A DNA stretch of 34,220 bases from Verrucomicrobiota bacterium (lineage in GTDB: Bacteria; Verrucomicrobiota; Verrucomicrobiia; Chthoniobacterales; SZAS-18), in assembly GCA_025353105.1 (NCBI GenBank), contig JANXRG010000108.1:1-34220 (forward strand), given 5' to 3'. The number at the start of each line of letters is the position of its first letter. Within the stretch, counting starts at the first letter, position 1. A program made the translations under genes and the position numbers. A model generated the notes under the pieces. That model was not told where the DNA came from, ran no database searches, and was given only the letters and a program-made list of their open reading frames with translations. This document shows, one piece after another, positions 2,244 through 22,844 of this stretch.

Positions 2244-2248
2244 GAGTG

Positions 2249-5200
2249 ATGCCTCCCGCCCAACGCAGACGAATTTTGGCGGCTTTGCAAGCGGTGACTC
2301 TGGTCGCCCTTTTGGCGTGGGCATTTCATTCCAACCAGGAGTCCATGGAAGTTCGTCCGGCGGCGCCGAAGCCCATTGCACAAGTGATCATTCCGTCGGA
2401 ACCGGTCGGTGCGCCGTCATCGGCGGCGTTCCCAACGATTCCATCCCGCGTCGCAGTGCCGGCGATAGCCGTGGCTCCGACCGTCACCGCAGCGCCGGCG
2501 ATCGATGCACCTTTCAAGGATTTCCGCGCGTGGACAGACCAAGCACTCGCTGCGGGGAGCGTTCAACCGGCCGGGGATTTTCAGGCGCGCGGGGTCGAAC
2601 TGGCGAAGGCGCGTCGGGTCGCGCTGGCGCAACTGATCGTCAATGACCCCGAGCGCGCCATTGCAGAAGCGGTATCGCCGTTGACGCGCCAGCAGCTTCC
2701 GGCGGAAATCGTGGCGCAGCTCGAAGAGCGTGTCAGCACGCGCGCTAATTTTGACGTTCTCGCGACGCTTCCGCCCGAGGGAAGTGCATGGGCGCAAATG
2801 CCTCCGATTCGGCGGCAGGTCCTCACCTCGGATGGCCTCTCCTACCAAGCCTACGTCTACGGCACGCGCACGAACCAAGCAACTGCGACGAATCTCCCGA
2901 TCAGCGGTATCGCGCTCGATGGCAAGCTCGCCGTGGCCGAGAGCCCCGTGCGCGTGATGGCCGCCGGCGAAAAGATTGCGGCAAGCACGCCCGTGGTCGA
3001 AGTCTGTCCGGTTTCCGGCGAGACCGTGCCCGGCGCCCACTCGGGCGAGGTGCCCCCCGGTGGATCGGCGATCGAGATCGGAGGTACCGTACATTTCCTC
3101 TGCAGCGGCGGGCACATCATCGAGGTGCAGGAAGGCCTGAGCAAAGGAACCTTTACGGTGGCCGGGACCAAGGTGTCACCGCCGCTCGACGCCCCGGTGA
3201 CCTCGAGCGCTTACAATCAGGGCATCAAAAAGATTCTGATCATCCGGTGCAACTTCACCGACGCTCTTGCGGGTTCGATCAGCGTCGCGGGCGGCCAGAG
3301 CATGCTCACCGCCACGGACGCGTTCATGAACGAAAATTCCTATGGCACCCTGCGGATCGACCTGGTCAATTCACTTGTGACGCCGGTGTTGATCACGATG
3401 CCGAAGACGAAGGCAACATACGTGACGGAGAACAACTCGACCGGTTTTCTCAGCGACGCGCGCACGGCGGCCGCGGCAGCGGGATACGACTACACGCTTT
3501 ATGATTTTGAATTTGTGTGCTACGCCTCGATCTATGGCTTCAGCGGGCAGGCCTACGTAGGCGCACGCGGCGTTTGGCTCCAGAGCAACAGCACCGGAGT
3601 GGCCTGCCACGAGTGGGGCCACAATCTTGGCCTATGGCATGCGAACTCGTGGAATGCGAGTAACGACACCGTCATTGGGTCCGGCAGCAACGGCGAATAC
3701 GGCGACAGCTTTGACACGATGGGTTCAGCGGCCGCTGGCCACAATTCCTTCAACGCGTACCACCGCAACCGGCTCGACTGGTTGCCGACCGGAAATGTCC
3801 AGACCGCAACCAACGCAAGCGGGACCTATCGGGTTTTTGCCTTCGACCAAACGACGCTCACGCCGGGCCAGGTCCTGGCGCTGAAGACGAACAAGGACAG
3901 TCGCGACTACTGGTTGGAGCATCGCGTGCAGTGGGGCTCCAGCCCGACCACCTCGAATGGCATCCTGTTGCACTGGAGCGCGTGGGCCAGCAGCAATGGC
4001 GGCTCCCAGCTGCTGGACACCAATCCGGGCACGGCGGGCGGGGTCGGCGATTCCGGGTTGGTTGTGGGTCGGACCTTCTCCGATTTCGCGTCCGGCGTGC
4101 ACATCACACCGATCGCGAAAAATGCCACGGCGCCCGAGTCGATCGATGTCGTCGTCAATCGCGGCGCGTTCGCGACGAACCGCCCACCGACGCTTTCGTT
4201 GAGCGCCTCCACCACCAGCGTAGCGACCAGCACCTCCGTCACTTTCACCGCCGCCGCGGCGGATCCGGATGGGGACGCGCTGGCGTACTATTGGGATTTT
4301 GGCAACGGCACAGTGGGACCGAACGCCGCCGTCGCGACGACCTTGTGGAGCAGCGCCGGCCAATACAATGTCCTGTGCACGGTGTCGGACATGAAGGGCA
4401 AGACCGTCGCGAAATCGGTGCTCGTCACAGTGGGTTCACCAGCCACTTTCACGGCCAGCGGAATCGTCGTGGATAACTACGGTCAGCTGGTGGCCGGAGT
4501 GCGCATTCACAACGGATTATCCGGTGGCAGTTATCGAGGCACCTACACGGACAGCAGCGGGCAATACGTGCTGACGAACCTGTCGACGGGCAGCTACACG
4601 CTGGGCGCCGTTTCAGCGGGTTTCACGGCGACGGCGGTCGCGAATTTCACGAATCCCATCACGGTGGGTCCCAGCCAGAACAGCCTGAATTTCACCGGCA
4701 CGTCGGTTGGCGCCACGGTGAATGTCGCCCCGCCTCCTGCGCCGGCGCGCGAGGTTGGACAAGTGCCAGCGTCATTCACGTTCACTCGCGGCCAGGAAGT
4801 ACCGACGACTTCCGCCCTGACCGTCAACTACACGTTGAGCGGAACGGCCGACAAGGCCACAGATTACATCGTCGCCGCGGGTCCGCCCGCCACCGGCACG
4901 TATACGTCTTCGACCGGCGCGGGAACGCTCATCATCCCCGCTAGCGCGTTGAGCGCCGGTCTGCAGATCACGCCCATCGACGACACCATCGCCGAGGGTG
5001 CGGAGACGGTTGTCGCCACCATCACGACCGGCAGCGGGTACCAGCTGGGTGGAAACGTGGCCGCGACGATGATCATCGTCGACAACCCCACCGTCGATGT
5101 TTACACCGAGGCCTTCTCCTCCGGCGCGTCGGCCAACCCGTTTGATTTGAATGGTCGAAAGATCATCTTCACGCCGCTCACCGCGACGACGTATCGCGGC

Positions 5201-6193
5201 GGGTGCGACCCGGCCGATGCATTCCCGACCGATCCGACCGGCGGGACCAATCTCGCCACCGGGAACACGGCGGTGGTGCCGTTGGCTGGCGGCAATCTCG
5301 ATGACGGCTACTGGCAGATTACCGGGCTCACGGTCCAACCCAAGATTTTCGGAACCTCGTTTCCGCAGATCTATGTGAACACGAACGGGAACATTAGTTT
5401 TGAAAGCGGCGACGCCGGCTCGGACAGCTCCTACACGCAGCACTTCACCAGTGGCCGGAAGCGCGTGTCGCTCTTCGGCGCGGATCTTGACCCCAGCAAG
5501 GGCGGCACGGTCAGCTACCAGGTGATCAGCACGGCCGGCGCGCAGCGCGTCGTTGTCACCTTTGCGAACGTGCCGCGATACGGCGGCGGCGGCACAATTC
5601 TCAACGCTCAGGTGGAACTGTGGGCGAACGGAACCATCACGCTCACCTACGTAAATACGACGATCACCGATGGCATGGTCGGGCTCGCCGCGGGCCAGGC
5701 CGCACCGAGCCCGTTCCTGCCGACCGACCTCAACGCCTATCCACCGACGGGCAGCTACGCTTCGTGGGTCAATACGCATTTTACGCCCGCGGAGATTGCC
5801 GACCTGACAATCACAGGCGCGATGGCCGATCCGGATGGCGACGGCTGGTCGAACCTGATGGAGTATGCGCTGGGCTCGGATCCGCATGTCCGCGGAACAC
5901 CGGCGGGCGCGCCCGTCATGGGCCAGGCGGGCGGATACCTGACGCTCAGCTTCCAGCGGGATCCGAATCTCACCGACCTCAATTACCTCGTCGAGTGCTC
6001 CGACGACGCCCTGACGTGGACCGTGATCGCGCAGAGCCTCGCCGGTGCGCCCATGGGCGCTGCATCGGGCCAGACTCCCAGCCAGTTGGGAGAAGTCGTG
6101 AACGGCAGCGTCATGAATGTGACCGTGGGCGACACGGCGCTGATGAGCAGCAAGGTGCATCGCTTCATGCGCCTGCGCGTGACGAAGCCCTGA
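2249..6193 (+). CDS. large exported multidomain metalloprotease, metzincin type (M11/gametolysin-like)
   Basis: A 1314-residue protein starting at ATG 2249 (a GTG codon lies directly before it). The N-terminus has basic residues and one hydrophobic segment at about 10-27, a signal peptide or anchor. The catalytic motif is HEWGHNLGLWH: zinc ligands His454, His458 and His464, catalytic Glu455. A Met-turn follows in DSFDTMGS (Met491). This is the metzincin pattern, closest in style to M11 gametolysin-like peptidases. Then come a PKD-type domain (about 644-729, YYWDFGNG), a carboxypeptidase-regulatory-like beta sandwich (734-818), a Calx-beta-like region (839-947), a nidogen-like beta region (1031-1150), and a C-terminal part with a calcium-binding-type DPDGDGWSNLMEYALGSDP near 1192-1212. 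It probably degrades extracellular protein. Family and minor domain names are by eye. No PEP-CTERM or LPXTG sorting signal is seen. Confidence 0.85.
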   Translation: MPPAQRRRILAALQAVTLVALLAWAFHSNQESMEVRPAAPKPIAQVIIPSEPVGAPSSAAFPTIPSRVAVPAIAVAPTVTAAPAIDAPFKDFRAWTDQALAAGSVQPAGDFQARGVELAKARRVALAQLIVNDPERAIAEAVSPLTRQQLPAEIVAQLEERVSTRANFDVLATLPPEGSAWAQMPPIRRQVLTSDGLSYQAYVYGTRTNQATATNLPISGIALDGKLAVAESPVRVMAAGEKIAASTPVVEVCPVSGETVPGAHSGEVPPGGSAIEIGGTVHFLCSGGHIIEVQEGLSKGTFTVAGTKVSPPLDAPVTSSAYNQGIKKILIIRCNFTDALAGSISVAGGQSMLTATDAFMNENSYGTLRIDLVNSLVTPVLITMPKTKATYVTENNSTGFLSDARTAAAAAGYDYTLYDFEFVCYASIYGFSGQAYVGARGVWLQSNSTGVACHEWGHNLGLWHANSWNASNDTVIGSGSNGEYGDSFDTMGSAAAGHNSFNAYHRNRLDWLPTGNVQTATNASGTYRVFAFDQTTLTPGQVLALKTNKDSRDYWLEHRVQWGSSPTTSNGILLHWSAWASSNGGSQLLDTNPGTAGGVGDSGLVVGRTFSDFASGVHITPIAKNATAPESIDVVVNRGAFATNRPPTLSLSASTTSVATSTSVTFTAAAADPDGDALAYYWDFGNGTVGPNAAVATTLWSSAGQYNVLCTVSDMKGKTVAKSVLVTVGSPATFTASGIVVDNYGQLVAGVRIHNGLSGGSYRGTYTDSSGQYVLTNLSTGSYTLGAVSAGFTATAVANFTNPITVGPSQNSLNFTGTSVGATVNVAPPPAPAREVGQVPASFTFTRGQEVPTTSALTVNYTLSGTADKATDYIVAAGPPATGTYTSSTGAGTLIIPASALSAGLQITPIDDTIAEGAETVVATITTGSGYQLGGNVAATMIIVDNPTVDVYTEAFSSGASANPFDLNGRKIIFTPLTATTYRGGCDPADAFPTDPTGGTNLATGNTAVVPLAGGNLDDGYWQITGLTVQPKIFGTSFPQIYVNTNGNISFESGDAGSDSSYTQHFTSGRKRVSLFGADLDPSKGGTVSYQVISTAGAQRVVVTFANVPRYGGGGTILNAQVELWANGTITLTYVNTTITDGMVGLAAGQAAPSPFLPTDLNAYPPTGSYASWVNTHFTPAEIADLTITGAMADPDGDGWSNLMEYALGSDPHVRGTPAGAPVMGQAGGYLTLSFQRDPNLTDLNYLVECSDDALTWTVIAQSLAGAPMGAASGQTPSQLGEVVNGSVMNVTVGDTALMSSKVHRFMRLRVTKP

Positions 6194-9424: not shown

Positions 9425-10204
9425 ATGTCCTTCATCGATTTGTTCTCCGACAAGGCCGCGCTCTACGCGTCGGCGCGGCCGACGTATCCGGAGGCATTGT
9501 TTGATTTCGTGGTCACAAAGGCGCCATCGACAGAACGCGCGTGGGACTGCGCCACGGGCAGCGGCCAGGCGGCGATCGGCCTCGCCCGGAGATTTCGCGA
9601 GGTCAAGGCCACGGACGCGAGTGCCGCCCAAATTGCGAACGCCATCCCCTGCTCCGGCGTGCGGTATTCCGTGCAACCGGCCGAGCGGACCGGGTTCGCG
9701 TCCGCATCCTTCGACGCTGTTTGCGTCGCGCAGGCGTTGCACTGGTTCGATTTGGCGAATTTCTTTGGCGAAGTCTCGCGCGTGCTCAAGGTCGACGGGG
9801 TGTTCGCAGCTTGGGGATACGACTGGCTGAGCGTCGATCCGGCCTTCGACGAGGAATTTCAAAGGTCGGTGCTCGACGTGGTCGCGTCGCGGTGGGCACC
9901 GCAGAACGCCCAGCTCTGGAACGGATATCGCGACGTCGCGCTGCCGTTCGAGCGGATCAAACCGCCGGCCGTGCCAATGCAAATGACCTGGACCTTCCCG
10001 CAGTTGCTGGCCTACGTGCACACCTGGTCCGCGGTCCGGCAATGTCTGGCGGAGAGCGGAGGTGATTTCTTCGACCGCGCGGAGGCCCGGCTCGAGCCTC
10101 GGTGGGGAGACCCTTCGGCGCGCCGCACCGTGACGTTTCGTTTGCACGTCATTGCGGGACGTAAGTCCGGCGATAGACTGGCGACACATGCGGACCCTGA
10201 TTGA
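9425..10204 (+). CDS. class I SAM-dependent methyltransferase
   Basis: A 259-residue protein starting at ATG 9425 (MSFIDLFSDKAALYASARP). The SAM-binding motif I is AWDCATGSGQAAIGLA near residues 39-55, followed by the acidic loop KATDAS. The post-I region DAVCVAQALHWFDLANFFGEVSRVLK fits the class I Rossmann fold of the methyltransferase-11 type, similar in outline to trans-aconitate and Crg1-like enzymes. The methyl acceptor is unknown. No signal peptide, so cytoplasmic. The 3' end overlaps the start of the cyclase gene by 17 bases. Confidence 0.88.
   Translation: MSFIDLFSDKAALYASARPTYPEALFDFVVTKAPSTERAWDCATGSGQAAIGLARRFREVKATDASAAQIANAIPCSGVRYSVQPAERTGFASASFDAVCVAQALHWFDLANFFGEVSRVLKVDGVFAAWGYDWLSVDPAFDEEFQRSVLDVVASRWAPQNAQLWNGYRDVALPFERIKPPAVPMQMTWTFPQLLAYVHTWSAVRQCLAESGGDFFDRAEARLEPRWGDPSARRTVTFRLHVIAGRKSGDRLATHADPD
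10152..10179 (+). promoter_or_regulatory. putative promoter for the adenylate cyclase gene
   Basis: TTGCGG (10152-10157) and TAGACT (10174-10179) are separated by 16 bases inside the methyltransferase 3' end. The ATG at 10188 is only eight bases beyond the -10 box, so the transcript may be leaderless. Three of six consensus bases match in each box, so this is tentative. Confidence 0.3.
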
Positions 10205-11018
10205 TTTCTGGAAGCGGGGCTGGCACGGCTTTCGACGACTTCACCTTGCGCTCTACATCCTGTTCGCCCTGATGATGAGTCTGGGTGGGCTGGTGGCGTC
10301 GCTCTTCGAGCAGTACTCGATCGTGGACTTCAAGCGTGGCATCACGGAGATCCGTCGCAGCGCCGGCGCGAAGGCGCGGGGCGAGGTGCTGGCACCGGAG
10401 GCCGAGCGATTGCGCGAGGCCTTCAAGCCCATGGACCGCAGCGATCGCCCCCTGCTGATGACTCCCAAGAGCGGAGCGCAATATGATTTACGCGTCGGGC
10501 AGGGCGCCGGGACGAGCTGGTGGCCCTACTTGGTGATCGTCGTCTGGCTGTGGCCCCTCTATCGGTATTACTTCTCGAGCAAACCGCAGAACGAGCGGCG
10601 CGTGGAGCAGCGCATCGTCGATCTCCCGCTTTTTCTTTTTGCCCTGACGTGGCTGGCGGCGGTGGCCCACTACTTTTCCCGGGTGGGTACGTACCGCGAA
10701 CTCTACGGGGATCCTGATGCCCGGGTGAAGATCACCTTTGCGGCCGGCGCCTTCCTGCTCGGTGCCTTCGCGGGCTATCTGAATCTCGAGCTGACGCAGC
10801 TCTATGTGCGCAAGCGAATCGCCCGCCCGTTCTTCCGCGACCACAATCACACACGGACTCAAGAGCGGATTGCGCGTCGGGCTCACCACGCGGTACGCGC
10901 TGATGATCTTCTCGCTGGCCACCGTCCCGCTCGCCCTGTGCGTCTATATTCCGGCGTTTTTCAATTGGGACCTGCTGGGTTCGCTCCCTGGATCCAAGAA
11001 CGGAACGCTCTTCTTTGA
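10188..11018 (+). CDS. adenylate cyclase, N-terminal membrane half (frameshifted fragment)
   Basis: This frame begins at ATG 10188 (MRTLIDFWKRGWHGF) and encodes four transmembrane segments: LYILFALMMSLGGLVASLF, WWPYLVIVVWLWPLYRYYF, LPLFLFALTWLAAVAHYF and ITFAAGAFLLGAFAGYL. It continues to LYVRKRIARPFFRDHNH near 10850. After that the reading becomes arginine- and alanine-rich and loses membrane character until the stop at 11018, which looks like out-of-frame translation. The next frame resumes two further transmembrane segments, a HAMP domain and the cyclase domain. Joined, the two give a 6TM-HAMP-cyclase of about 574 residues, like the mycobacterial Rv1319c group. The break falls in a CACACAC run at 10848-10854; adding one CA unit would restore one frame. 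It is either a real mutation or a sequencing error. Confidence 0.75.
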   Translation: MRTLIDFWKRGWHGFRRLHLALYILFALMMSLGGLVASLFEQYSIVDFKRGITEIRRSAGAKARGEVLAPEAERLREAFKPMDRSDRPLLMTPKSGAQYDLRVGQGAGTSWWPYLVIVVWLWPLYRYYFSSKPQNERRVEQRIVDLPLFLFALTWLAAVAHYFSRVGTYRELYGDPDARVKITFAAGAFLLGAFAGYLNLELTQLYVRKRIARPFFRDHNHTRTQERIARRAHHAVRADDLLAGHRPARPVRLYSGVFQLGPAGFAPWIQERNALL

Positions 11019-11910
11019 GAACGCGGGCATCATGATTCCGCTGGTCATGACCACGTTTATCGCGGCCTTGATGCTTTGCTTTCACGGGCTCTCCATCCTG
11101 CTCTTCCGCTGGAACCTGCAGGCCCCCGTGGCAAAACTGATCGAGCGCATGCGCGGGGTGGCCGCCGGCGATTTCGAACGCAAGACCTCGGTGCTCGACT
11201 CCGACGAGATCGGCCAGCTGAAGGGCCACTTCAACCTGATGCTCGACGGCCTGCAGGAGCGGGAGAAGATCAAGGACACGTTTGGCCGGTACGTCTCGAT
11301 CGAGATTGCCGAGAAGATCATCAAGAGCGGCAAGGTAAATCTCGCGGGTGAAGAGATCGAGGCGACCGTGCTCTTCTCCGACATCCGGAATTTCACGCCG
11401 CTGAGCGAGACGCTGCCGGCCGCGGAGCTGGTGCGTTTCCTCAACGCGTATTTTTCGCACGTCACGCGGCCGATCATGGACAGCGGCGGCGTGATCAACA
11501 AATTCATGGGCGACGCCCTGATGGCCATCTTCTCGCCGGTCTTCGGACTCGAGGATCACGTTGGAGCCGCGGTGCGGGCGTCGCTCGGCATGCGCGCGGC
11601 GCTCGCTGATTTCAACCGCAACGGCGAGTATCCGCCGGTTCTGGCGGGGGTGGGAATCCACACGGGCCGGCTCGTGGCCGGAAACGTCGGTACCGAGCGC
11701 CGCATGGAATACACCGTCCTCGGCGACACCGTGAATGTGGCCTCCCGCATCGAGAGCCAGACCAAGCAACAGCAGACTGACATCCTGCTCAGCGGTGCCG
11801 TCGTCGCCGCGCTGGACTGCGCTCAATTCGGCGTCGTGCGCTTCGAGACCTGCGGCCCGGTGCTCTTGCGCGGAAAATCCGCGCCGATGGAGCTGTTTCG
11901 AATCGGCTGA
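10804..11910 (+). CDS. class IIIb adenylate cyclase, HAMP plus catalytic half (frameshifted fragment)
   Basis: The genuine coding part of this frame begins near 10855 (GLKSGLRVGLTTRYALM); the ATG at 10804 lies in shadow sequence. It has two transmembrane segments (ALMIFSLATVPLALCVYIP and IMIPLVMTTFIAALMLCF), a HAMP linker (NLQAPVAKLIERMRGVAAGD) and a class III cyclase domain. Metal-binding aspartates lie in VLFSDIRNF and KFMGDA. The purine-specifying pair is Lys in INKFMGD and Thr in YTVLGDTVN; Thr replacing Asp marks class IIIb. Transition-state Asn and Arg are present in VNVASR. All catalytic residues are therefore kept and the product should be cAMP. The SET-domain gene follows by 21 bases. 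Family is firm. Whether an intact protein is made depends on the frameshift. Confidence 0.88.
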   Translation: MCASESPARSSATTITHGLKSGLRVGLTTRYALMIFSLATVPLALCVYIPAFFNWDLLGSLPGSKNGTLFFENAGIMIPLVMTTFIAALMLCFHGLSILLFRWNLQAPVAKLIERMRGVAAGDFERKTSVLDSDEIGQLKGHFNLMLDGLQEREKIKDTFGRYVSIEIAEKIIKSGKVNLAGEEIEATVLFSDIRNFTPLSETLPAAELVRFLNAYFSHVTRPIMDSGGVINKFMGDALMAIFSPVFGLEDHVGAAVRASLGMRAALADFNRNGEYPPVLAGVGIHTGRLVAGNVGTERRMEYTVLGDTVNVASRIESQTKQQQTDILLSGAVVAALDCAQFGVVRFETCGPVLLRGKSAPMELFRIG

Positions 11911-11931: not shown

Positions 11932-12354
11932 ATGAGTAAGGAAACCCGCCGCCTGACCGCCGACCCCCGCTTGATCGTGCGCGGCAGCGGAATCCATGGC
12001 CGCGGCATCTTCGCGGCGATCGCCCTGCCCGGCCGGAGAAAGCTGGGAGAGGTCACGGGTAAGCGCGTCCGGCTGCCTGAAGCGCGCCAGGCCGTCGTGC
12101 GACAACCGCGCATTTATCTCGTGGAGTTGACCCGGCGTTACGCGCTGGATTGCTCGACGGGAAATGATTTCCGCCATCTGAACCACAGCTGCCGGCCCAA
12201 CTGCTACCTGCGCGTCTCCCACGGCCGGGTCGAAGTGTACTCCAAGGAGGCGATTGCGGCCGGGAGCGAATTGACGGTCGATTACGGCGCGACGCCGCAT
12301 GAAGGCGGGATGACCTGCCGCTGCGGAGCGGCCCGGTGCAAGGAAGTATTGTAA
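11932..12354 (+). CDS. short SET-domain protein (putative lysine methyltransferase)
   Basis: A 140-residue protein that is almost only a SET domain. The N-terminal strand RGSGIHGRGIFAA matches the SET-I start that contacts SAM. The signature RHLNHSCRPNCYLR contains NHSCxPN. The catalytic-Tyr motif is ELTVDYG, and a post-SET-like zinc cluster CRCGAARCKEVL closes the chain. In eukaryotes such domains methylate protein lysines. Bacterial copies are scattered and their targets mostly unknown. Here it sits between the cyclase and carbonic anhydrase genes. The start at ATG 11932 has another ATG four bases earlier in a different frame and no clear Shine-Dalgarno site. Domain call is strong; substrate unknown. 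Confidence 0.87.
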   Translation: MSKETRRLTADPRLIVRGSGIHGRGIFAAIALPGRRKLGEVTGKRVRLPEARQAVVRQPRIYLVELTRRYALDCSTGNDFRHLNHSCRPNCYLRVSHGRVEVYSKEAIAAGSELTVDYGATPHEGGMTCRCGAARCKEVL

Positions 12355-12438
12355 GGTGGCGCCGCGGCACCAAATTCCGGGCGCGGAAAATGATCGACTT
12401 CGGTTCGCGCTTGATCTGGCCGGCCCGTGTCGCGCACC

Positions 12439-12468
12439 TTGACGAAAAACCACGCTGCAGCATATCGC
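12439..12468 (+). promoter_or_regulatory. putative sigma70 promoter of the carbonic anhydrase gene
   Basis: TTGACG at 12439-12444 matches the -35 consensus at five of six bases. A -10 box follows as CATATC (12461-12466, spacer 16) or TATCGC (12463-12468, spacer 18). The ATG at 12472 is then three to five bases after the -10 box, so transcription would begin at or very near the start codon. Confidence 0.45.
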
Positions 12469-12471
12469 GCT

Positions 12472-13116
12472 ATGGGACACCTCGGACATCTTTTGAATCA
12501 CAATCGGGCTTGGGCCGACTCCATTCGGCGCCAGAACCCGGATTTCTTTGCCGAACTTTCGCAGCAGCAGTCACCCACGTACCTATGGATTGGCTGTTCG
12601 GACAGCCGCGTGCCCGCGAACCAGATTGTCGGACTCCCGCCGGGTGAATTATTTGTTCACCGCAACATCGCGAATCTCGTCGTGCACACAGACCTCAATT
12701 GCCTTTCGGTCATGCAGTTCGCCGTCGATGTGCTGAAGGTGCGTGACATCATCGTGTGCGGCCATTACGGCTGCAGCGGCGTGACAGCCGCGCTGCGCCG
12801 GGAGCGACTAGGATTGAGCGACAACTGGCTGCGCCACGTCCAGGATGTGCGCGAGAAGCACGACGCGCGACTCGGGAAATTGCCGGAAGACGGGGCCGGC
12901 TGCGATCGATTGTGCGAGCTCAACGTCGTCGAACAGGTGGTTAACGTCTGCCAGACCACGATCGTGCGCGACGCCTGGGAACGCGGCCAGGAGCTGGCGG
13001 TGCACGGTTGGATTTATGGAATCCAGGACGGCCTCATTCGCGATCTGAGCATGACCGTCGCGAACGTGGTGGACGTTGGCCCGACCTATCGCGCCGCCAT
13101 CGCCGGGTTGGGTTAA
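12472..13116 (+). CDS. can: beta-class carbonic anhydrase
   Basis: A 214-residue enzyme interconverting CO2 and bicarbonate. The start is ATG 12472, not the upstream GTG 12427, because numbering then matches the Escherichia coli enzyme exactly: zinc ligands Cys42, Asp44 (IGCSDSRVP), His98 and Cys101 (GHYGCSG). Trp39 and Arg64, which with a Tyr form the non-catalytic bicarbonate site of type II beta enzymes, are present, and Tyr182 in HGWIYGI is the likely third member. Asp44 can act as the fourth zinc ligand in the closed state, so bicarbonate inhibition and pH control are expected. Cytoplasmic. It lies 117 bases after the SET gene with its own probable promoter. Confidence 0.95.
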   Translation: MGHLGHLLNHNRAWADSIRRQNPDFFAELSQQQSPTYLWIGCSDSRVPANQIVGLPPGELFVHRNIANLVVHTDLNCLSVMQFAVDVLKVRDIIVCGHYGCSGVTAALRRERLGLSDNWLRHVQDVREKHDARLGKLPEDGAGCDRLCELNVVEQVVNVCQTTIVRDAWERGQELAVHGWIYGIQDGLIRDLSMTVANVVDVGPTYRAAIAGLG

Positions 13117-14374: not shown

Positions 14375-14824
14375 ATGAACCAATCGCTTTCCCCGTCCGC
14401 TCGTCTCCCGCTTCGTCGCTCGCGGGGTTTCACGCTGCTGGAGATCATGCTGGTGGTCACGATCATCATGCTGCTACTGGGCGCCGGCGTCTTTTTCCTC
14501 GGGGATCAATTCACGATTGGGCAGCGCGCGCGGGTGCAGGCGGATTTGCAGGGGCTGACGACGAACCTGCGCACGTACCAGATGTTGAACGGATTTTTCC
14601 CGACCGCGCAGCAGGGTCTGCAGGCCCTCGTGACGCCGCCCACCTCCGAGCCAAAGCCGAAGCAATGGGTGCAGCTTTCGACCAAGATTCCGCAGGATCC
14701 GTGGGGGAACGACTACGTCTACATCTGCCCCGGTAAGCACAATCCGAAGACCTTCGACCTGTATTCGAAAGGCGCGGATCGCCTGCCCGATACCGAGGAC
14801 GACATGGGCAACTGGGACAAGTAG
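14375..14824 (+). CDS. gspG: type II secretion major pseudopilin GspG
   Basis: A 149-residue pseudopilin that forms the shaft of the T2SS pseudopilus. The 18-residue leader ends LRRSRG, cleaved before FTLLEIMLVV, with Gly at -1 and Glu at +5 as prepilin peptidase requires. A hydrophobic helix of about 22 residues follows. The C-terminal domain carries GspG hallmarks: LRTYQMLNGFFPTAQQGLQALV, the IPQDPWGNDYVY loop, and the calcium-site region FDLYSKGADRLPDTEDDMGNW. Length matches the family. It is separated from the other T2SS genes by small-protein, ilv and HAD genes and sits two bases after the unknown secreted-protein gene. A probable terminator follows it. Confidence 0.95.
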   Translation: MNQSLSPSARLPLRRSRGFTLLEIMLVVTIIMLLLGAGVFFLGDQFTIGQRARVQADLQGLTTNLRTYQMLNGFFPTAQQGLQALVTPPTSEPKPKQWVQLSTKIPQDPWGNDYVYICPGKHNPKTFDLYSKGADRLPDTEDDMGNWDK

Positions 14825-14847
14825 CGGGCCGTCCGGCCGCCCGTTTT
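14825..14847 (+). terminator. probable intrinsic terminator after gspG
   Basis: CGGGCCG and CGGCC(GC)CCG form a GC-rich hairpin at 14825-14843 with a two-base bulge. TTTT follows at 14844-14847. It begins at the gspG stop codon and would end the secreted-protein/gspG transcript. Confidence 0.5.
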
Positions 14848-14885
14848 GACTGGTAAGACCGCCGGTGCTGGGCTAAGTCTCCTCC

Positions 14886-15074
14886 ATGGGTTTGATCCGA
14901 AAAGCATTTTGGGTGGCCGTGACGCTGGTCTTCACCCTCCTATTTTCCGTCCTCTTCGAGCACGGAACTTTGGACTACGGGAAAAACCTGGAGAAGGAAA
15001 TCAAATCCCTCCGGGACTTCGTCAAGCCTCCTCCGCGCAAGAAGGACACAAGCGATAGCATCCCGCCGAAGTAA
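14886..15074 (+). CDS. small single-pass membrane protein
   Basis: A 62-residue protein starting MGLIRKAFWVAVTLVF. One transmembrane helix spans about residues 7-24, followed by a charged tail (YGKNLEKEIKSLRDFVK) that ends in a Pro/Lys-rich stretch (PPPRKKDTS). No known family is recognised. It lies downstream of gspG but after a probable terminator, and is convergent with ilvC. The coding frame keeps a sensible hydrophobic-then-amphipathic pattern, which argues for a real small gene. Its neighbourhood hints at an envelope role, but that is conjecture. Confidence 0.55.
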   Translation: MGLIRKAFWVAVTLVFTLLFSVLFEHGTLDYGKNLEKEIKSLRDFVKPPPRKKDTSDSIPPK

Positions 15075-15081
15075 ACAAGCT

Positions 15082-15098
15082 GGGGCAAGCCGGGCCCC
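15082..15098. terminator. short hairpin between convergent genes
   Basis: GGGGC (15082-15086) and GCCCC (15094-15098) can pair around a seven-base loop in the 34-base gap between the small membrane-protein gene and the ilvC stop. It could end transcription from either side. No U-run is present. Confidence 0.3.
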
Positions 15099-15108
15099 GC
15101 TCGTTCGT

Positions 15109-16134
15109 TCAATACGCCGCCTGCGCACCCTTGAGATTGCGCCGCGCGATCCATGGCATCAGGCCGCGCAAGCGCGTGCCGACCTTTTCGATCGGGTGCT
15201 TTTCTCCGGCCTTCAGCAGTTTCGTGTAGGTCTTCCGGCCGGTCTTGTATTCGCGAATCCAACGCCGCGCGAACGTGCCATCCTGAATTTCCTTCAGCAC
15301 CTTCTTCATCTCGGCGCGCACCGCGCGATTGATGATACGTGGACCGGTGACGACATCGCCAAACTTCGCGGTTTCGGAAATTGAAAACCGCATCCCGGCG
15401 ATGCCCGCCTCGTTCATGAGGTCGACGATGAGCTTCAGCTCGTGCAGGCATTCGAAGTACGCCATCTCGGGTTGGTACCCGGCGGCGACCAGCGTCTCGT
15501 AGCCGGCCTGGACCAGCGCGGTCGCGCCGCCGCACAGCACGGCCTGCTCGCCGAATAAATCAGTCTCCGTCTCCTCCTGGAAGGTCGTCTCAATCACCCC
15601 GGCGCGTGTCCCGCCAATGGCTTTGGCCCAAGCGAGCGCGAGCTTCTTCGCCTGCTTCGACGGGTTCTGGTAGATGGCGATCAGCGCAGGCACGCCCTTG
15701 CCCTCGAGGAACTGCCGCCGCACGATGTGGCCGGGCCCCTTCGGTGCGACCATGAACACGTCCACGTCCTTGGGTGGTTTGACCGTGCCATAATGGACCG
15801 CGAAGCCGTGGCAGAACACGAGCGCCTTCCCCTTTTTCATAACCGGCGCGACTTCGGACTCATAGATTGGGGCGATTTTAAGGTCGGGCGCGCAGAACAT
15901 GATGATGTCGGCCTTTGCGGCCGCCTCCCTCACGTCGTACACCTTGAATCCCTTTTCGGCGGCAACCGCCCGCGAGGGGCTGCCGGCGTACAGTCCGATG
16001 ATGACGTTGACGCCGCTGTCCTTGAGATTCAGGGCATGTGCGTGCCCTTGCGAACCGAAACCGATCACGGCGACGGTCTTGTTTTGCAGCACGGCGAGAT
16101 TCGCGTCTTTGTCGGTGTAGATTTTTGCGGCCAT
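15109..16134 (-). CDS. ilvC: ketol-acid reductoisomerase (class I)
   Basis: A 341-residue enzyme that isomerises and reduces acetolactate or acetohydroxybutyrate with NADPH and Mg2+, the second step of valine and isoleucine synthesis. The Rossmann motif is GFGSQGHAHALNLKDSG (residues 25-41). The cofactor-specificity loop is GLYAGSPSR (47-55). Catalytic residues are His109 (FCHGF) and Lys132 (APKGPGH). The C-terminal domain has metal ligands Asp192 and Glu196 (ETDLFGEQ), Glu228 and Glu232 (YFECLHE), and Ser253 (SISET) for substrate. The length is that of the short class I form. It lies 52 bases downstream of ilvN on the same strand, so the two form an operon. Confidence 0.97.
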   Translation of the reverse strand: MAAKIYTDKDANLAVLQNKTVAVIGFGSQGHAHALNLKDSGVNVIIGLYAGSPSRAVAAEKGFKVYDVREAAAKADIIMFCAPDLKIAPIYESEVAPVMKKGKALVFCHGFAVHYGTVKPPKDVDVFMVAPKGPGHIVRRQFLEGKGVPALIAIYQNPSKQAKKLALAWAKAIGGTRAGVIETTFQEETETDLFGEQAVLCGGATALVQAGYETLVAAGYQPEMAYFECLHELKLIVDLMNEAGIAGMRFSISETAKFGDVVTGPRIINRAVRAEMKKVLKEIQDGTFARRWIREYKTGRKTYTKLLKAGEKHPIEKVGTRLRGLMPWIARRNLKGAQAAY

Positions 16135-16186
16135 GGATTGCGGTGGGGATGGACCGCGCCGGCGGGCGGCGGGTCCGGAATGGAAA

Positions 16187-16666
16187 TTATGATTCGGTCC
16201 GCATCATCGCGACCTTGCCCGTGCGGGCGATTCCGGCGATGCCGAACGGGTTCATCATCTTGAGGAACTTGTTGATCTTGGCCTCGTGGCCGGTGAGTTC
16301 GATGACGAGGCTGTTCAGTTGCATGTCCACCACCTTTGCGCGGAAGATCTCGCAGATTTGCATAATCTCCGGCCGCGACGACGGGTCGGCATTCACGCGC
16401 AGGAGGACGAGTTCTCGGTCGACGTATTCGCCGTCGCGGAAATCCTCGATCTGGATCACGTCCACCAGTTTGCCCAGCTGTTTAGTGACTTGCTCGAGGA
16501 CCGCGTCGTCGCCCCGGACCACGATGGTCATATGCGCGACCGACGGGTCGTTTGTGGGTCCGCTGTTGAGCGTGTCAATGTTGAAGCCGCGACCGCTGAA
16601 CATGCCCGCAATGCGAGCGAGGACGCCGAAGCGATTTTCCACGAGAACCGAAAGCGTGTGGCGCAT
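16187..16666 (-). CDS. ilvN: acetolactate synthase small (regulatory) subunit
   Basis: A 159-residue regulatory subunit. Its N-terminal ACT domain (about residues 1-75) begins MRHTLSVLVENRFGVLARIAGMFSGRGFNIDTL, the family signature, with the N-x-GVL-R and GRGFNI loops where valine binds for feedback inhibition. The C-terminal domain holds RELVLLRV, FRAKVVDM and the conserved end LMMNPFGI-like segment (FLKMMNPFGIAGIARTGKVAM). AGGAA lies about ten bases upstream of the ATG at 16666, a usable ribosome site. ilvC follows by 52 bases. The catalytic large subunit (ilvB) is not adjacent: the upstream neighbour is a divergent phosphatase gene. Confidence 0.95.
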   Translation of the reverse strand: MRHTLSVLVENRFGVLARIAGMFSGRGFNIDTLNSGPTNDPSVAHMTIVVRGDDAVLEQVTKQLGKLVDVIQIEDFRDGEYVDRELVLLRVNADPSSRPEIMQICEIFRAKVVDMQLNSLVIELTGHEAKINKFLKMMNPFGIAGIARTGKVAMMRTES

Positions 16667-16750
16667 ATGTCCTTGTTTCCTGGGCGACCCTGTTTTGCCG
16701 GGAGCGGAGACTCCGGAGGATTGGGCCTTTCGTCAAACGGATTTTCGGCC

Positions 16751-16756
16751 TATGAC
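16751..16756 (+). promoter_or_regulatory. putative -10 box for the HAD phosphatase gene
   Basis: TATGAC (four of six consensus bases) lies nine bases before the ATG at 16766. A weak -35 candidate TTTCGT is at 16728-16733 with a 17-base spacer. On the other strand TTGACG (complement of 16731-16736) may be the -35 box of ilvN, though no good -10 box follows. The 99-base divergent gap thus probably holds both promoters. Confidence 0.3.
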
Positions 16757-16765
16757 GGCCGACTC

Positions 16766-17353
16766 ATGCAACTTGCGATTCCCCCGGGGCCCTTCGGCGC
16801 GTACCTCTTCGACTGCGACGGGACGCTCGCAGACACCATGCCGCTGCATTATCGCGCCTGGCGGGCGACCCTTGATCCACTCGGTGCGGAATTCCCAGAA
16901 GATTTCTTTTACGGGATTGGTGGGACGCCAACGGCGCGCATCGTGGAAATCCTGAATGAGCGAAACGGGATCACCATGCCGATCGATTTGACGGCGCGAA
17001 CCAAGTCGGTGGCGTTCGTGGCCCTGCTGGCGGAGGCGCGTCCGATCGATGAGGTGATGACTTTGGCGCGCCGCGCGATCGATGCGGGAGAGAAAGTGGC
17101 CGTCGTGACCGGCGGTATGCGATGGGTGACCGACCGCATTTTGGAGGTCATTGGCGCGGGCGGGATTTTCGCGACGGTTGTGACGTCGGAGGATGTCGTG
17201 CGGGGGAAGCCGGCCCCGGATTGTTACCTTGAGGCGGCGCGGCGGTTGGCCGTTTCGCCGGCCGATTGTCTGGTGTTCGAGGACACGCGCACGGGAATCG
17301 AGGCGGCGACCGCAGCCGGGATGCGATCCGTGCTCGTGCCGCGGCCGCGCTGA
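16766..17353 (+). CDS. HAD-superfamily phosphatase (beta-phosphoglucomutase/YqaB-like)
   Basis: A 195-residue protein starting at ATG 16766 (MQLAIPPGPFGAYLFDCDGT). The long open frame upstream is a shadow of ilvN. All HAD motifs are present. Motif I is LFDCDGTLADT, with nucleophile Asp16 and acid/base Asp18. Motif II is VAVVTGG. Motif III Lys is in RGKPAPD, and motif IV is VFEDTRTGIEAA. The small alpha-helical cap and the MPLHYRAWRATL segment resemble the YqaB/beta-phosphoglucomutase subgroup, so a sugar phosphate such as fructose-1-phosphate is a possible substrate. Cytoplasmic. It is divergent from ilvN. Confidence 0.9.
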   Translation: MQLAIPPGPFGAYLFDCDGTLADTMPLHYRAWRATLDPLGAEFPEDFFYGIGGTPTARIVEILNERNGITMPIDLTARTKSVAFVALLAEARPIDEVMTLARRAIDAGEKVAVVTGGMRWVTDRILEVIGAGGIFATVVTSEDVVRGKPAPDCYLEAARRLAVSPADCLVFEDTRTGIEAATAAGMRSVLVPRPR

Positions 17354-17396
17354 ACGCGGTGGTGTCGATGGGCGCCCGAATGTGACGGCGAGCTAA

Positions 17397-17497
17397 GGTG
17401 GAACGCGATCTCCGAGCGCGTTGGCAATGGGTTTGGCAGCCCGCGGGCGCGGGCTGCATTTGCCTCTTGGCAACGCGCTCAGAGATCGCGTTCCACC
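17397..17497. repeat. large nested palindrome (REP/MITE-like) between convergent genes
   Basis: Two 31-base arms, 17397-17427 and 17467-17497, are inverted copies with only two mismatches (core CGCGATCTCCGAGCGCG against CGCGCTCAGAGATCGCG). Inside is a second perfect stem, GCAGCCCGC (17436-17444) with GCGGGCTGC (17449-17457), around a four-base loop. The element fills the gap between the HAD gene (+) and gspE (-), both transcribed toward it. It could serve as a bidirectional terminator, a repetitive extragenic palindrome, or a miniature mobile element. No target-site duplication was evident. The remaining 133 bases up to the gspE stop show no gene. Confidence 0.85.
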
Positions 17498-17630
17498 AGC
17501 GTCACCTCCAGCTTGCCAACCGCGATTCGACTTCACGTCCTAGCCGTAATTGCATTTTCGCGGGTTCTAAATATTCCCAACTTCCTTCGAGTTTCGAATT
17601 TCGAACTTCCCGCGCCGTCGGGCGCTCCCC

Positions 17631-19349
17631 TCAATCCGTCTCCGCGATCGCCTCGTCCTCCTGCGTCACGCGGATGACTTCCTCGACGGTGCTCATCCCC
17701 TGCCGCACGCGTCGCCAGCCGTCCTGTCGCAGGGTCACCATGCCCTCGGAAACCGCGACCGCTTTCAGCACGCCGCCACTGGCCTTGTGGACGATTTCCT
17801 CGCGCAGGCGCTCGGTGACGGGACAAATCTCGTAGATCGCCGCGCGTCCGAGGTAGCCCGTGTGACGACAGGCATCGCAGCCCACACCCCGCTTGAAGCG
17901 GTGCCCGAATTCATGCGGCACGCCAATCGATTCAAGATACGCGGGGTCGTAGTCGTGGTCCTCGATGCAGTGCAAGCAGACGGTGCGCACCAAACGCTGG
18001 GCGATGAACGCGCGCACTACGCTCGCGACGAGGAAGGCCTCGACGCCCATGTCGAGCAGGCGCGTGATCGCGCCGACGGCGTCGTTCGTGTGCAGGGTGG
18101 AGAAGACGAGATGCCCGGTCATGGCGGCCCGAATGCCGATTTCCGCGGTTTCGAAGTCGCGCATTTCGCCGACCATCACGACATTCGGATCCTGGCGGAG
18201 GATGGAGCGAAGCCCGTTGGCGAAAGTGAGATTAATTTCGGGGCGCACCTCAATCTGACTCACGCCCGGCAGCCGGTACTCGACCGGGTCCTCGATCGTA
18301 ATGATGCGCCGCTGCACGGAGTTGATGCTGCTCAGGAAGCAATACAAGCTCGTGGATTTGCCCGAGCCCGTCGGTCCGGTGAGCAACATGATGCCGTTTG
18401 GTTGGGCGAGCAGGGTCTTCACGAGGGCGAGGTGCGCGTCGCTCATGTCCAGCCGGTCGAGCCCGAATCGCTGCTCGTCGCGCGCGAGCAACCGGAGCGA
18501 GATGCTTTCGCCGTGCACGGTGGGAATGGTGGAAACGCGCACGTCGATATCGCGCGTGCCATCCTTGAGATTGATGCGGCCGTCCTGGGGCAGGCGCCGC
18601 TCGGCGATGTCCATGTGGGCCATCACCTTCAAACGGCTGATGATGGCGCTCTGCAACAACCGGAGCTGCGGTGGAACCGCCGTCTCGTGCAGAATGCCGT
18701 CGATCCGGTACCGGATGCGCAAATCGTTTTCCAGCGGCTCGACGTGGATGTCGGTCGCCCGCTCCGCGATCGCCTCGCGGATGATCAGGTTCACGAATTT
18801 TACGACGCTGGCCTCGGGATCGTCGGCGTTGAGATCCGCCGCGATCGACTCGCGATCCGCCGGTAGATCGAGCGAAGAGTTGTTCTGGATGAGCTGGTCG
18901 AACGTCTCCGCGCCCACGCCGTACAGCGTCTTGATCGCGCGGATAAGCGGGGCGCGCGGCACGAGCAGCCAGCGCAGCGTCTTGCCCGGCGTGAGCTGCG
19001 CGGCGAGCTGGCGGGCGACGGGATTGAAGAGGTCGTAGGTCGCGAGCGTGAGCGAGTCTTCCGTCTTCTCCAGCGGCAGGACGTGGTGCTGAAAAACGAA
19101 GCGGCTCGGGAGCGCCTTCACCGCCTCGCGTTCGACCTTGGCGGGGTCGAGCCGCGGTTCATAGGGCACGTCAAAGGCCTCGGCGAGATGCGCGAGAAAG
19201 CGGCCCTCGTTGACCTTCGGTGAGTTGAGTGCGGTGTTGGTCCACGTCACGCCGGGTTCGCGGGCATCGGCGAGCTGACCTGCCTCTTCGAGACTAGGCA
19301 CTCCGGCCGCAACGAGCGCCTCGACCAGCTTTTGGCGGAAGGGTGACAT
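17631..19349 (-). CDS. gspE: type II secretion ATPase GspE
   Basis: A 572-residue cytoplasmic hexameric ATPase that powers pseudopilus assembly. An N-terminal domain of about 150 residues (MshEN/N1E-like) is followed by the catalytic core. Walker A is LLTGPTGSGKSTS near residues 320-332. An Asp box lies in IITIEDPVEY, the Walker B region is VVMVGEMRDFETAEIG, and a His box is STLHTNDA. Two CxxC pairs (VCLHC and CDAC), the zinc-binding element of GspE proteins, flank the C-terminal C1 domain. The gspD stop lies 42 bases upstream, so it is the second gene of a gspD-gspE operon. Confidence 0.96.
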   Translation of the reverse strand: MSPFRQKLVEALVAAGVPSLEEAGQLADAREPGVTWTNTALNSPKVNEGRFLAHLAEAFDVPYEPRLDPAKVEREAVKALPSRFVFQHHVLPLEKTEDSLTLATYDLFNPVARQLAAQLTPGKTLRWLLVPRAPLIRAIKTLYGVGAETFDQLIQNNSSLDLPADRESIAADLNADDPEASVVKFVNLIIREAIAERATDIHVEPLENDLRIRYRIDGILHETAVPPQLRLLQSAIISRLKVMAHMDIAERRLPQDGRINLKDGTRDIDVRVSTIPTVHGESISLRLLARDEQRFGLDRLDMSDAHLALVKTLLAQPNGIMLLTGPTGSGKSTSLYCFLSSINSVQRRIITIEDPVEYRLPGVSQIEVRPEINLTFANGLRSILRQDPNVVMVGEMRDFETAEIGIRAAMTGHLVFSTLHTNDAVGAITRLLDMGVEAFLVASVVRAFIAQRLVRTVCLHCIEDHDYDPAYLESIGVPHEFGHRFKRGVGCDACRHTGYLGRAAIYEICPVTERLREEIVHKASGGVLKAVAVSEGMVTLRQDGWRRVRQGMSTVEEVIRVTQEDEAIAETD

Positions 19350-19391
19350 TCGAATCAGAAACGGTCGGACGCCGCACCCTTTGGGATCGGC

Positions 19392-21833
19392 CTAACCATC
19401 GGACGGCGGGTCCTCATTCCGAACCACATCCTTGTCGGTGGGAGGGACCGGCCTGGGCTTGGTGGTTTTCGGCTTCGGGCGGACTGGCGCGGGCTGCACG
19501 CGAATCGCCTTGCGCACCGAATCCGGCGCGGGCTGGGGCCGACCTGGCGGATAGAGCTGGCCCGCGAGGTCGCCGGAAAGATAGTACCGTTGCTCTTCGT
19601 CGCTCTTGGCGCGCACCAGCTGCTTCTGCGTGTTCGCCACCATGGGATGCAGCAAGATAATCAACTCAGAGCGGCTGGCGCTATTGTTTTGGGTCTTGAA
19701 CAAGTAGCCGAGAATCGGGATCCGGCTCAGAAATGGCAGACCACTCTGCGTCTTCGAGTCCTCCTGTTTGATGAGTCCGCCCAAGACGATCGTGGCGTTG
19801 TTCGGCACGGAAACCGTCGACCTGACAAAACGCGTCGCAATCGTCGGAACGGGATTGCCCGCTATCACCACCCCGCCGCCTGACACGACCGAGTCGATCT
19901 TCTGGTAGATGTCGAGGGTGACCTCGTTGTCGCTGTTGATCAACGGGATGACCTCCAATTGCAGAGTCACACTCTTGAATTGAATGGACGAACTGACGGC
20001 CGAAGTTGTATTCGCCGTCGAGCCGGCGGTGATGTTCGACAGCGTGCTGGTCGGCACGGCAATTTCCTGACCGCTCGCGATCACGGCCTTCTTGTTATTG
20101 CTCGCGAAGACGACGGGACGGGAAATCGTCTTGAATCGGTTACTCGACTCCAAAGCCTTGACGAGGATATCGAAATTACTGGTCGCCCGGACGACGGCGC
20201 CCGCTCCGCTAAAACCGCCCAGGGCCGTCGCGAGAGCCGAGATGACCGAGAGACCCGTGGCGGGCGTCGTGGTGCTGTTTGGATTGATGAATCCCGGACT
20301 GCTGCCGGTGAAGTTTGTGAAACCCGTTACGGCCCCCGAGCGAAGAATATAATCCACGCCACTTTCGATGCCGTTGCCGAGCGAGAACTCGCCGATGACC
20401 GCGGAGATCAGCACCTGCGGCGCGCGCACGTCGAGCTGCGCGATGATCTTCATCACGCGATCCACCGCCTCGCCGCTGCCCTGGATGATGATGGCGTTGT
20501 CGCGCGGATCGGCGATGAGCTTGGTGTTGCCGACGACCACCGCGCTTGGAGTTGTGTCGGTCTGCTGCGTCTCGAGACCCTGCGTCAAATTGAGTCCGCC
20601 CCCGCCGGCATTGGTGCCGGAACCGGACGCCGAACGATTCTGATTGTTGGCGAACAGCGGATTCTGCGCGCCGGTCTGCGCGGCCGGACGACCCGCCGCG
20701 CCAGGCGCCCCCGCGTTTCCGGACTGGTCGCTCCCTGGCTCGGTGAGCGACTGGACGAGGATCTGCAGGATGTCGCGCGCGGAAACAAACTTGAGCCGGC
20801 GCTTCACCGGATCGGCAAACGGAGTGTTCGCGTCGAACTCCTCAATCAACCGGCGCACGAGCGGCATGTTGACGGGACGGGTCACGACGTGCACGCGGTT
20901 CGTGCGCACGTCCGCCGTGATCTGAATCTTTCCCACCACGATCGCGTCCTCGGTCATCCCCCCGAGCGCGCTCGAAAGACCGGGATTTTCCAGCACGCCT
21001 GGCACGGCGACATTTGCGGGATTGGGATTGCCCGCCTGGTTCGAGGCGGGCCGAGGGCGCACGCGATTGCCCGTGGGCGCGGCGGCGGCTTCCTTGCGCT
21101 CGAAGACGGAATTCAGAAATTCGACGGCCTTGGTAACATCGGCGCGCTCGAGCCGGATGAATTCCTCCACGACCTCCGCCGGCGGAATGTCCACGTCGCG
21201 CACCAACTGGACGAGTTTGCGGATCACGCTCGTGCTCTCCGTGACGAGCAACGCCCCGGATTTGGGCAGCGCGACAAATGATGTGTAGAGATTCGCCGTG
21301 ATGTATTGCTGCAGGATCTGTTGCAGCTCGGTCGGATCCAGGTAGCGCAGTCGAAAGAGGTACGACACGACCAGCTCACCCTCGGGCAGTTGGGCGAAGT
21401 CGGAATAAATCGAGACGCCGGCGCCCCGCGCATTCTTGCTCAAGCCGAGGACCTTGGTGATGCCATCACCGGGCACGATGGAAAATCCGTTGAGCAGTAG
21501 CGCCGTCTCGATCAGCTTGATCGCCTCAGACCTCGTCACCTTGCCGTTGACGACGATGTTGATTTGACCCTGGATGGTGGAATCGAGGACGAGCCGCTTG
21601 CTGGTCAGGCGCTCGTAGTAACTGAGCACGTCGCGGACATCGGCGTTGGGCAGCTGCATCTGCACCATTTCCTCGCCCGCGCTCGACCCGGCGCCGGGCA
21701 AGCCTGCCATGGGCGGGACGACGAGGGGCGGCGGCGTGACCGGGATGGAGGGGGGAACGCCCGGAGCCTGCGCGAGCGCGGCCCCGACCGGGAGCGTGCA
21801 TACCAGCAACAACAGGAACGCGCTGGCGCGCAT
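19392..21833 (-). CDS. gspD: type II secretion outer-membrane secretin GspD
   Basis: An 813-residue secretin from ATG 21833, chosen over GTG 21860 because it begins a classic signal peptide (MRASAFLLLLVCTLPVGAALAQA) and sits about 27 bases after a predicted transcription start. Domains in order: Pro-rich linker, N0 (about 55-130, LPNADVRDVLSYYERLT), N1 (155-220), N2 (225-340), N3 (345-480, with a long Gly/Ala/Asn-rich insertion containing GNAGAPGAAGRPAAQTG), and the secretin barrel (480-750). The secretin signature VPNNATIVLGGLIKQEDSKT is near 675-695, followed by GLPFLSRIPILGYLF. The C-terminal tail is basic and Pro-rich (RPKPKTTKPRPVPP). It forms the outer-membrane channel. Confidence 0.96.
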   Translation of the reverse strand: MRASAFLLLLVCTLPVGAALAQAPGVPPSIPVTPPPLVVPPMAGLPGAGSSAGEEMVQMQLPNADVRDVLSYYERLTSKRLVLDSTIQGQINIVVNGKVTRSEAIKLIETALLLNGFSIVPGDGITKVLGLSKNARGAGVSIYSDFAQLPEGELVVSYLFRLRYLDPTELQQILQQYITANLYTSFVALPKSGALLVTESTSVIRKLVQLVRDVDIPPAEVVEEFIRLERADVTKAVEFLNSVFERKEAAAAPTGNRVRPRPASNQAGNPNPANVAVPGVLENPGLSSALGGMTEDAIVVGKIQITADVRTNRVHVVTRPVNMPLVRRLIEEFDANTPFADPVKRRLKFVSARDILQILVQSLTEPGSDQSGNAGAPGAAGRPAAQTGAQNPLFANNQNRSASGSGTNAGGGGLNLTQGLETQQTDTTPSAVVVGNTKLIADPRDNAIIIQGSGEAVDRVMKIIAQLDVRAPQVLISAVIGEFSLGNGIESGVDYILRSGAVTGFTNFTGSSPGFINPNSTTTPATGLSVISALATALGGFSGAGAVVRATSNFDILVKALESSNRFKTISRPVVFASNNKKAVIASGQEIAVPTSTLSNITAGSTANTTSAVSSSIQFKSVTLQLEVIPLINSDNEVTLDIYQKIDSVVSGGGVVIAGNPVPTIATRFVRSTVSVPNNATIVLGGLIKQEDSKTQSGLPFLSRIPILGYLFKTQNNSASRSELIILLHPMVANTQKQLVRAKSDEEQRYYLSGDLAGQLYPPGRPQPAPDSVRKAIRVQPAPVRPKPKTTKPRPVPPTDKDVVRNEDPPSDG

Positions 21834-21848
21834 CAAACGGCACGGCTT

Positions 21849-21933
21849 GAGGAGGAACACTGGGGCAGTAAACGGTCTTTTGGCCCCAAGGTCAAACCAT
21901 GCGGGCCCGATTGCGCTGGGTGGCTTCCTCCTC
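21849..21933. repeat. 9-base inverted repeat in the gspD/gspH divergent region
   Basis: GAGGAGGAA (21849-21857) and TTCCTCCTC (21925-21933) are exact inverted copies. As a result the same pyrimidine-rich string precedes each divergent start by 13 to 15 bases. It may be a shared operator half-site, or chance. Confidence 0.4.
21867..21895 (-). promoter_or_regulatory. putative sigma70 promoter of gspD-gspE
   Basis: Read on the minus strand: TTGACC (complement of 21890-21895; five of six consensus bases), a 17-base spacer, and TTTACT (complement of 21867-21872; four of six). Transcription would begin near 21860, leaving a leader of about 27 bases before ATG 21833. Confidence 0.55.
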
Positions 21934-21939
21934 TAACCT
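21911..21939 (+). promoter_or_regulatory. putative promoter of the gspH-led operon
   Basis: TTGCGC (21911-21916) and TAACCT (21934-21939) are separated by 17 bases, with three of six consensus matches each. The -10 box ends seven bases before GTG 21947, which would make the transcript leaderless. Confidence 0.35.
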
Positions 21940-21946
21940 TGGCCCT

Positions 21947-22836: not shown

Positions 22837-22844
22837 CCGACCCG

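Follow-up and report, generated by a model that had tools for sequence, protein, structure and literature searches.

We propose that the plus-strand DNA from 10188 to 11910 carries one ordinary 6TM-HAMP cyclase gene whose reading frame is interrupted by a recent one-base frameshift or by an error of the draft consensus, and we give this reading a probability of roughly 0.88. Positions refer to the window, the whole 34,220-nucleotide stretch of a Verrucomicrobiota bacterium that was analysed (contig JANXRG010000108.1). The first frame starts with an ATG at 10188, which sits inside a listed ORF with a TTG start (10152..11018), and is closed by a TGA at 11016-11018. The second frame stays open between 10795 and its stop at 11908-11910, and its mechanical ORF begins with an ATG at 10804. 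The two frames meet at a run of CACACAC (Table 1); besides this joint, neither a stop codon nor a second frame switch was found within the cyclase gene.

Table 1. Features of the split cyclase gene, in window positions
Feature	Position	Strand	Description
Cyclase gene, first half	10188..10847	+	Residues 1-220, membrane segments 1-4; 35-48% identity to the N-terminal part of 13 single-ORF relatives; GC3 0.81
Frame-switch site	10848..10854	+	7 bases, CACACAC, versus 6 in 13/13 relatives; from codon alignment and HMM
Frame-1 tail past the switch	10848..11018	+	56 missense codons, then TGA; GC3 0.46; relatives unmatched beyond residue 220
Cyclase gene, second half	10849..11910	+	Frame +1; segments 5-6, HAMP and cyclase; 60-69% identity to the same 13 relatives; GC3 0.85
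HAMP domain	11104..11259	+	PF00672, E 3.2e-8; residues 101-152 of the frame-2 ORF
Class III nucleotide cyclase catalytic domain	11359..11883	+	PF00211, E 5.1e-25; residues 186-360 of the frame-2 ORF
Catalytic motifs	LFSDIRNFT 11371-11397; NKFMGD 11497-11514; EYTVLGDTVNVASR 11707-11748	+	Read in frame 2

The second frame matches all 31 homologous loci that were compared, and 13 of these (L008-L020) carry both parts within a single ORF, which from its first possible start is 567-677 residues long. L008 and L009 represent the window's own genus, being from both of its other genomes, while L010-L020 are ten MAGs titled Elusimicrobia or Elusimicrobiales together with L015, titled "bacterium". The other 18 loci match the second half and not, with confidence, the first; they have other anchors or are more distant, and were omitted from the count at the joint. 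Four of them show weak first-half matches (E 0.06-0.95), and six were included in the alignment. The 13 close relatives are colinear with the window gene over its whole length, at the identities given in Table 1. Their match to the first frame ends at residue 218-220 (base 10841-10847), and their match to the second starts at base 10852-10855, the exception being L014 at 10843. An earlier note had described one gene split by a frameshift, with the second frame resuming at the break, and the single ORFs of these relatives bear this out. The same note had considered that relatives might consistently carry two ORFs; none of the 13 close homologues is split.

Two tests that are free of homology agree on the position of the switch. 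A 7-state, 3-periodic codon HMM places the change of frame at 10852/10853. Its training set was 175 long ORFs from the window's own genome; as length was the sole criterion for choosing them, they may include ORFs of the window as well as some spurious antisense ORFs. GC3 is high in both halves of the gene and drops in the 56-codon tail of the first frame (Table 1). The suggestion that the first frame loses its sense near 10850 thus holds by the end of the relatives' match and by the HMM.

At the level of codons, the joint interval is bounded on one side by the codon that aligns with Asn AAT (10845-10847) and on the other by a Gly codon at 10855. In all 13 relatives it comprises two codons and six bases, namely Pro (CCC or CCT) followed by Tyr, His or Phe (TAC, CAC or TTC); the proline is invariant, and a repeat at this site is absent from every one of them. 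Because the window has seven bases where the relatives have six, the codon alignment argues that one base was gained on balance at the break, and not that a CA unit was lost. The latter event is not supported, as it requires a nine-base ancestor, and nine bases are found in none of the 13. According to the earlier note, one more CA unit would join the two frames. Arithmetically such a unit does restore the frame; the resulting protein would be one residue longer at the joint than any of the 13 relatives and would lack the invariant proline.

Read across the joint, the intact gene is predicted to encode an ordinary 6TM-HAMP class III adenylate cyclase that would make cAMP. All of the recognised catalytic residues are in place in frame 2: the two aspartates in LFSDIRNFT and NKFMGD, the lysine in NKFMGD, the threonine in EYTVLGD, and the asparagine and arginine in TVNVASR. 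We take the aspartates to be metal-binding and the lysine and threonine to select adenine, the combination that presumably places the enzyme in class IIIb. This fits the description of the domain as catalytically complete, and by these residues the complement of a class IIIb enzyme would be full. The substrate is likewise predicted from motifs, and Cya2, one of the related solved structures, is titled a guanylyl cyclase.

The anchor half matched no Pfam family. With a mean hydropathy of 1.2 as threshold, frame 1 itself shows only three peaks, so that the count of four segments made earlier stands for three of them, while the fourth (near residues 111-128) is suggested by the intact homologue L010. 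L010 has six hydropathy peaks before its HAMP domain, and its predicted structure shows six long helices (at a modest pLDDT of 64, with low confidence over HAMP). Since the threshold of 1.2 also flags two stretches inside the catalytic domain, the segment count leans on the structure model as well. In this model the Asn-Pro-X-Gly joint separates helix 179-220 from helix 224-258 (pLDDT 64). The six segments of L010 are divided four plus two across the frames of the window. A HAMP domain between anchor and catalytic domain is also found by Pfam in L010 and L008, and the proposed 6TM-HAMP-cyclase architecture is therefore confirmed by the peaks and helices of L010 together with the Pfam matches to HAMP and cyclase.

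The type of the class IIIb 6TM-HAMP cyclases is Rv3645 of Mycobacterium tuberculosis, which belongs to cluster 2 of Beltz et al. 2016, with anchors that have elongated loops or helices (PMC4821796). The window gene shares with it six membrane segments, a HAMP domain after the sixth and a class III catalytic domain (PMC4821796), and a loop of about 70 residues lies between its membrane segments 1 and 2. Unlike the Rv3645 type, it is frameshifted in the assembly, and its anchor, having no Pfam match, is likened to that of Rv3645 by architecture only. The best 50 fold matches of the structure model are cyclases, so that, with its modest pLDDT, the model says little about the anchor. CyaB of P. 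aeruginosa (3r5g), Cya2 (2w01) and CyaC of S. platensis (1wc1) are among the top 20 and share the catalytic domain with the window protein (profile E 1.8e-27 to 3.5e-34); OaPAC is also among the closest solved catalytic domains. In the best 60 of 62 solved class III chains no best stretch begins before profile position 335, and so the anchor is not covered by them. Literature searches for adenylate cyclase in Elusimicrobia and for frameshift errors in MAGs, judged by title, returned nothing related.

How long could the gene have been broken? With the joint excluded, the window gene has changed none of the 30 columns of the N-terminal half that are invariant among the 13 relatives, and 4 of the 148 in the C-terminal half. 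When relatives were left out in turn, the corresponding counts were 1/31 and 4/152 for L008, 7/37 and 12/160 for L009, and 4/34 and 15/163 for L010, while in the remaining ten, a dense clade by themselves, 0-1 and 0-2 columns were changed. The terminal branch of the window gene is 0.22, against 0.34, 0.51 and 0.44 for the three nearest relatives. Because constraint is intact, the branch is short and the catalytic motifs are in place, the gene appears free of long decay, and the lesion would be very recent or not in the organism at all. Of the suggestion that this is a decaying gene, what survives is a very recent single lesion; otherwise decay is not seen.

The most probable of the competing explanations, though a very unlikely one, is that the split is useful and yields two working proteins, a separate four-segment anchor and, by initiation inside the gene, a shorter HAMP-cyclase. 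Catalytic domains of class III can function when detached from their anchors, frame 2 is open from 10795 with possible starts at ATG 10804, TTG 10870 and ATG 10903, and a further ATG at 11032, 13 bases past the frame-1 stop, could receive reinitiating ribosomes and give a product of 292 residues with segment 6, HAMP and cyclase. Against this, none of the 13 close relatives is split, the tail of frame 1 has no coding signature by its GC3 of 0.46, and no convincing ribosome-binding site was seen by eye before the internal starts. The ATG at 10804 that opens the frame-2 ORF also precedes the point at which 12 of the 13 relatives begin to match (10852-10855).

Could the run at the joint be a genetic switch? 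In Helicobacter pylori oipA, dinucleotide repeats near the gene start underlie phase variation (PMC10564699). By analogy with these CT repeats, slippage of the CA tract would turn a full-length receptor-cyclase on and off; the earlier note had named a phase-variable switch among its possibilities. The seven bases do form a CA tract at the frame break, which is the likeness to oipA (PMC10564699), a gained unit would repair the frame as described above, and both halves of the gene are conserved; near-perfect conservation of both halves is also expected of a functional phase-variable gene in its off state. However, the tract has only 3.5 units, short of the hypermutable many-unit tracts of phase-variable genes. 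CACACAC is no commoner than chance, with one seen in the window versus 2.26 expected, and 710,929 bases of the window's genome, with both strands counted, contain it 15 times. A run of 5.5 CA units (CACACACACAC) occurs nowhere in the whole genome. Neither is a tract kept at the same place in the relatives, varying by whole units: 0 of 13 have one, and all have six bases. Unlike the oipA tract, which is near the gene start (PMC10564699), the site lies mid-gene, and the change in length against the relatives is one base and not two. There is no sign of a genetic switch, and a switch is not needed to explain the break; we consider this explanation slightly less probable still than that of two proteins. 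With a divergence of 31-40% in the second half, the relatives do leave some room for an ancestral loop with one extra codon, from which a CA unit was later lost. A run that looks like a dinucleotide repeat and sits at a frame break readily suggests phase variation; the codon-level comparison, with its one-base change and no repeat, is a warning against that conclusion.

A combination of these ideas has an even smaller chance: the short CA tract might slip in the population and toggle between a full-length, ligand-coupled cyclase and a shorter HAMP-cyclase cut from its sensor, made from internal starts or by reinitiation at ATG 11032. Least probable of all is a programmed ribosomal frameshift, in which the ribosome would skip one base in CACACAC to make the full protein; the required shift is indeed +1 and the second half is fully conserved, but in none of the 13 close relatives does the protein require a shift, and no slippery or stop-linked site of what we take to be the known +1 kinds is evident by eye. 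It was mainly because the 13 close relatives are all single ORFs that the programmed shift and the two-gene arrangement were rejected.

For the preferred reading, a single gene with a one-base frameshift or a consensus error, it matters how common such breaks are elsewhere in the genome. We counted as a switch any change of frame on the same strand at which the first ORF runs on for more than 45 bases. In 1,263,787 of the 3,724,877 bases (1,082,217 called coding) the detector flagged six; it recovered 49 of 60 planted insertions, placed at least 250 bases from segment ends. Three of the six read as ordinary gene ends or overlaps (one in L051, two in L077), and the other three, in the cyclase gene, L128 and L143, are probable breaks. 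At L128 (G000:C54, 3230-6060, minus strand), a protein kinase-TPR ORF of 762 aa has a switch near 3838, and its C-terminal TPR part continues in another frame; an A7 run is close to the switch. The two parts match an intact neighbouring paralogue in order, with 50% identity over 699 residues and then 24% over 153 (E 2.7e-5). At L143 (G000:C69, 10097-10786, minus strand), a DUF4440 ORF has no counterpart to profile positions 1-21 and extends some 395 bases beyond the end of its coding signature, overlapping the next gene. A comparable scan of 272,923 bases in 26 relatives' loci, made with the codon model of the window's genome on loci chosen by cyclase match and not as a random sample, flagged none. 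Because few breaks were flagged, the assembly is not riddled with indels, and a handful of breaks per genome is compatible with fresh natural mutations and with rare consensus errors alike. We rate a natural mutation and an indel in the draft consensus about equal, and only reads can decide between them. No 16S rRNA gene was found in the whole genome (G000), which is rated 97.57% complete; its absence would be usual for a short-read metagenome bin.

Just downstream of the cyclase, at 11932-13116, lie a small SET-domain protein and a carbonic anhydrase (Pro_CA family), the latter two genes downstream; neither was seen beside the cyclase in 28 relatives' loci. No shared neighbouring genes at all were found in these 28 loci with 36 queries; one of the queries was read in the wrong frame, and the two genus-mates have little flanking sequence on one side or on both. 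Elsewhere in the window, a spread-out type II secretion-like set (T2SSG, T2SSE, secretin, T2SSJ below its curated cut-off, and T2SSK) occupies 14375-24406, and a 1315-residue ORF with PKD and carboxypeptidase-regulatory domains occupies 2246-6193; the latter has a weak gametolysin-like peptidase match below cut-off.

The homologue searches found no copy of the window gene closer than 69% identity. When the phylum of the window was searched, matches at E <= 1e-40 came from 22 of 387 genomes; leaving aside the copy in the window itself, all listed matches are at 43% identity or below. Beyond the genus, the nearest homologues found are in Elusimicrobia MAGs, with 60-68% identity in the second half versus at most 43% among the other listed matches in the 387 genomes of the phylum. 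This distribution of sequence identity suggests a transfer of the cyclase gene between lineages.

On the reading that we favour, a net gain of one base at the boundary of segments 4 and 5 would throw translation out of frame, either as a very recent natural mutation (in one strain, or in the consensus of a mixed population) or as an indel of the draft consensus. With a real mutation, the cell would mainly produce a four-segment anchor that ends in 56 missense residues and lacks the enzyme, and any cyclase could come only from internal starts, devoid of the first four membrane segments. If instead the base is an error, annotation would yield two artefactual ORFs. Matches to the cyclase also occur at four further loci of the genome (C119, C86, C45 and C70, the weakest with E 5.9e-6), and therefore the loss of one may be tolerable; if the mutation is real, the organism has a receptor-cyclase that was broken only recently, alongside these four cyclase-like loci.
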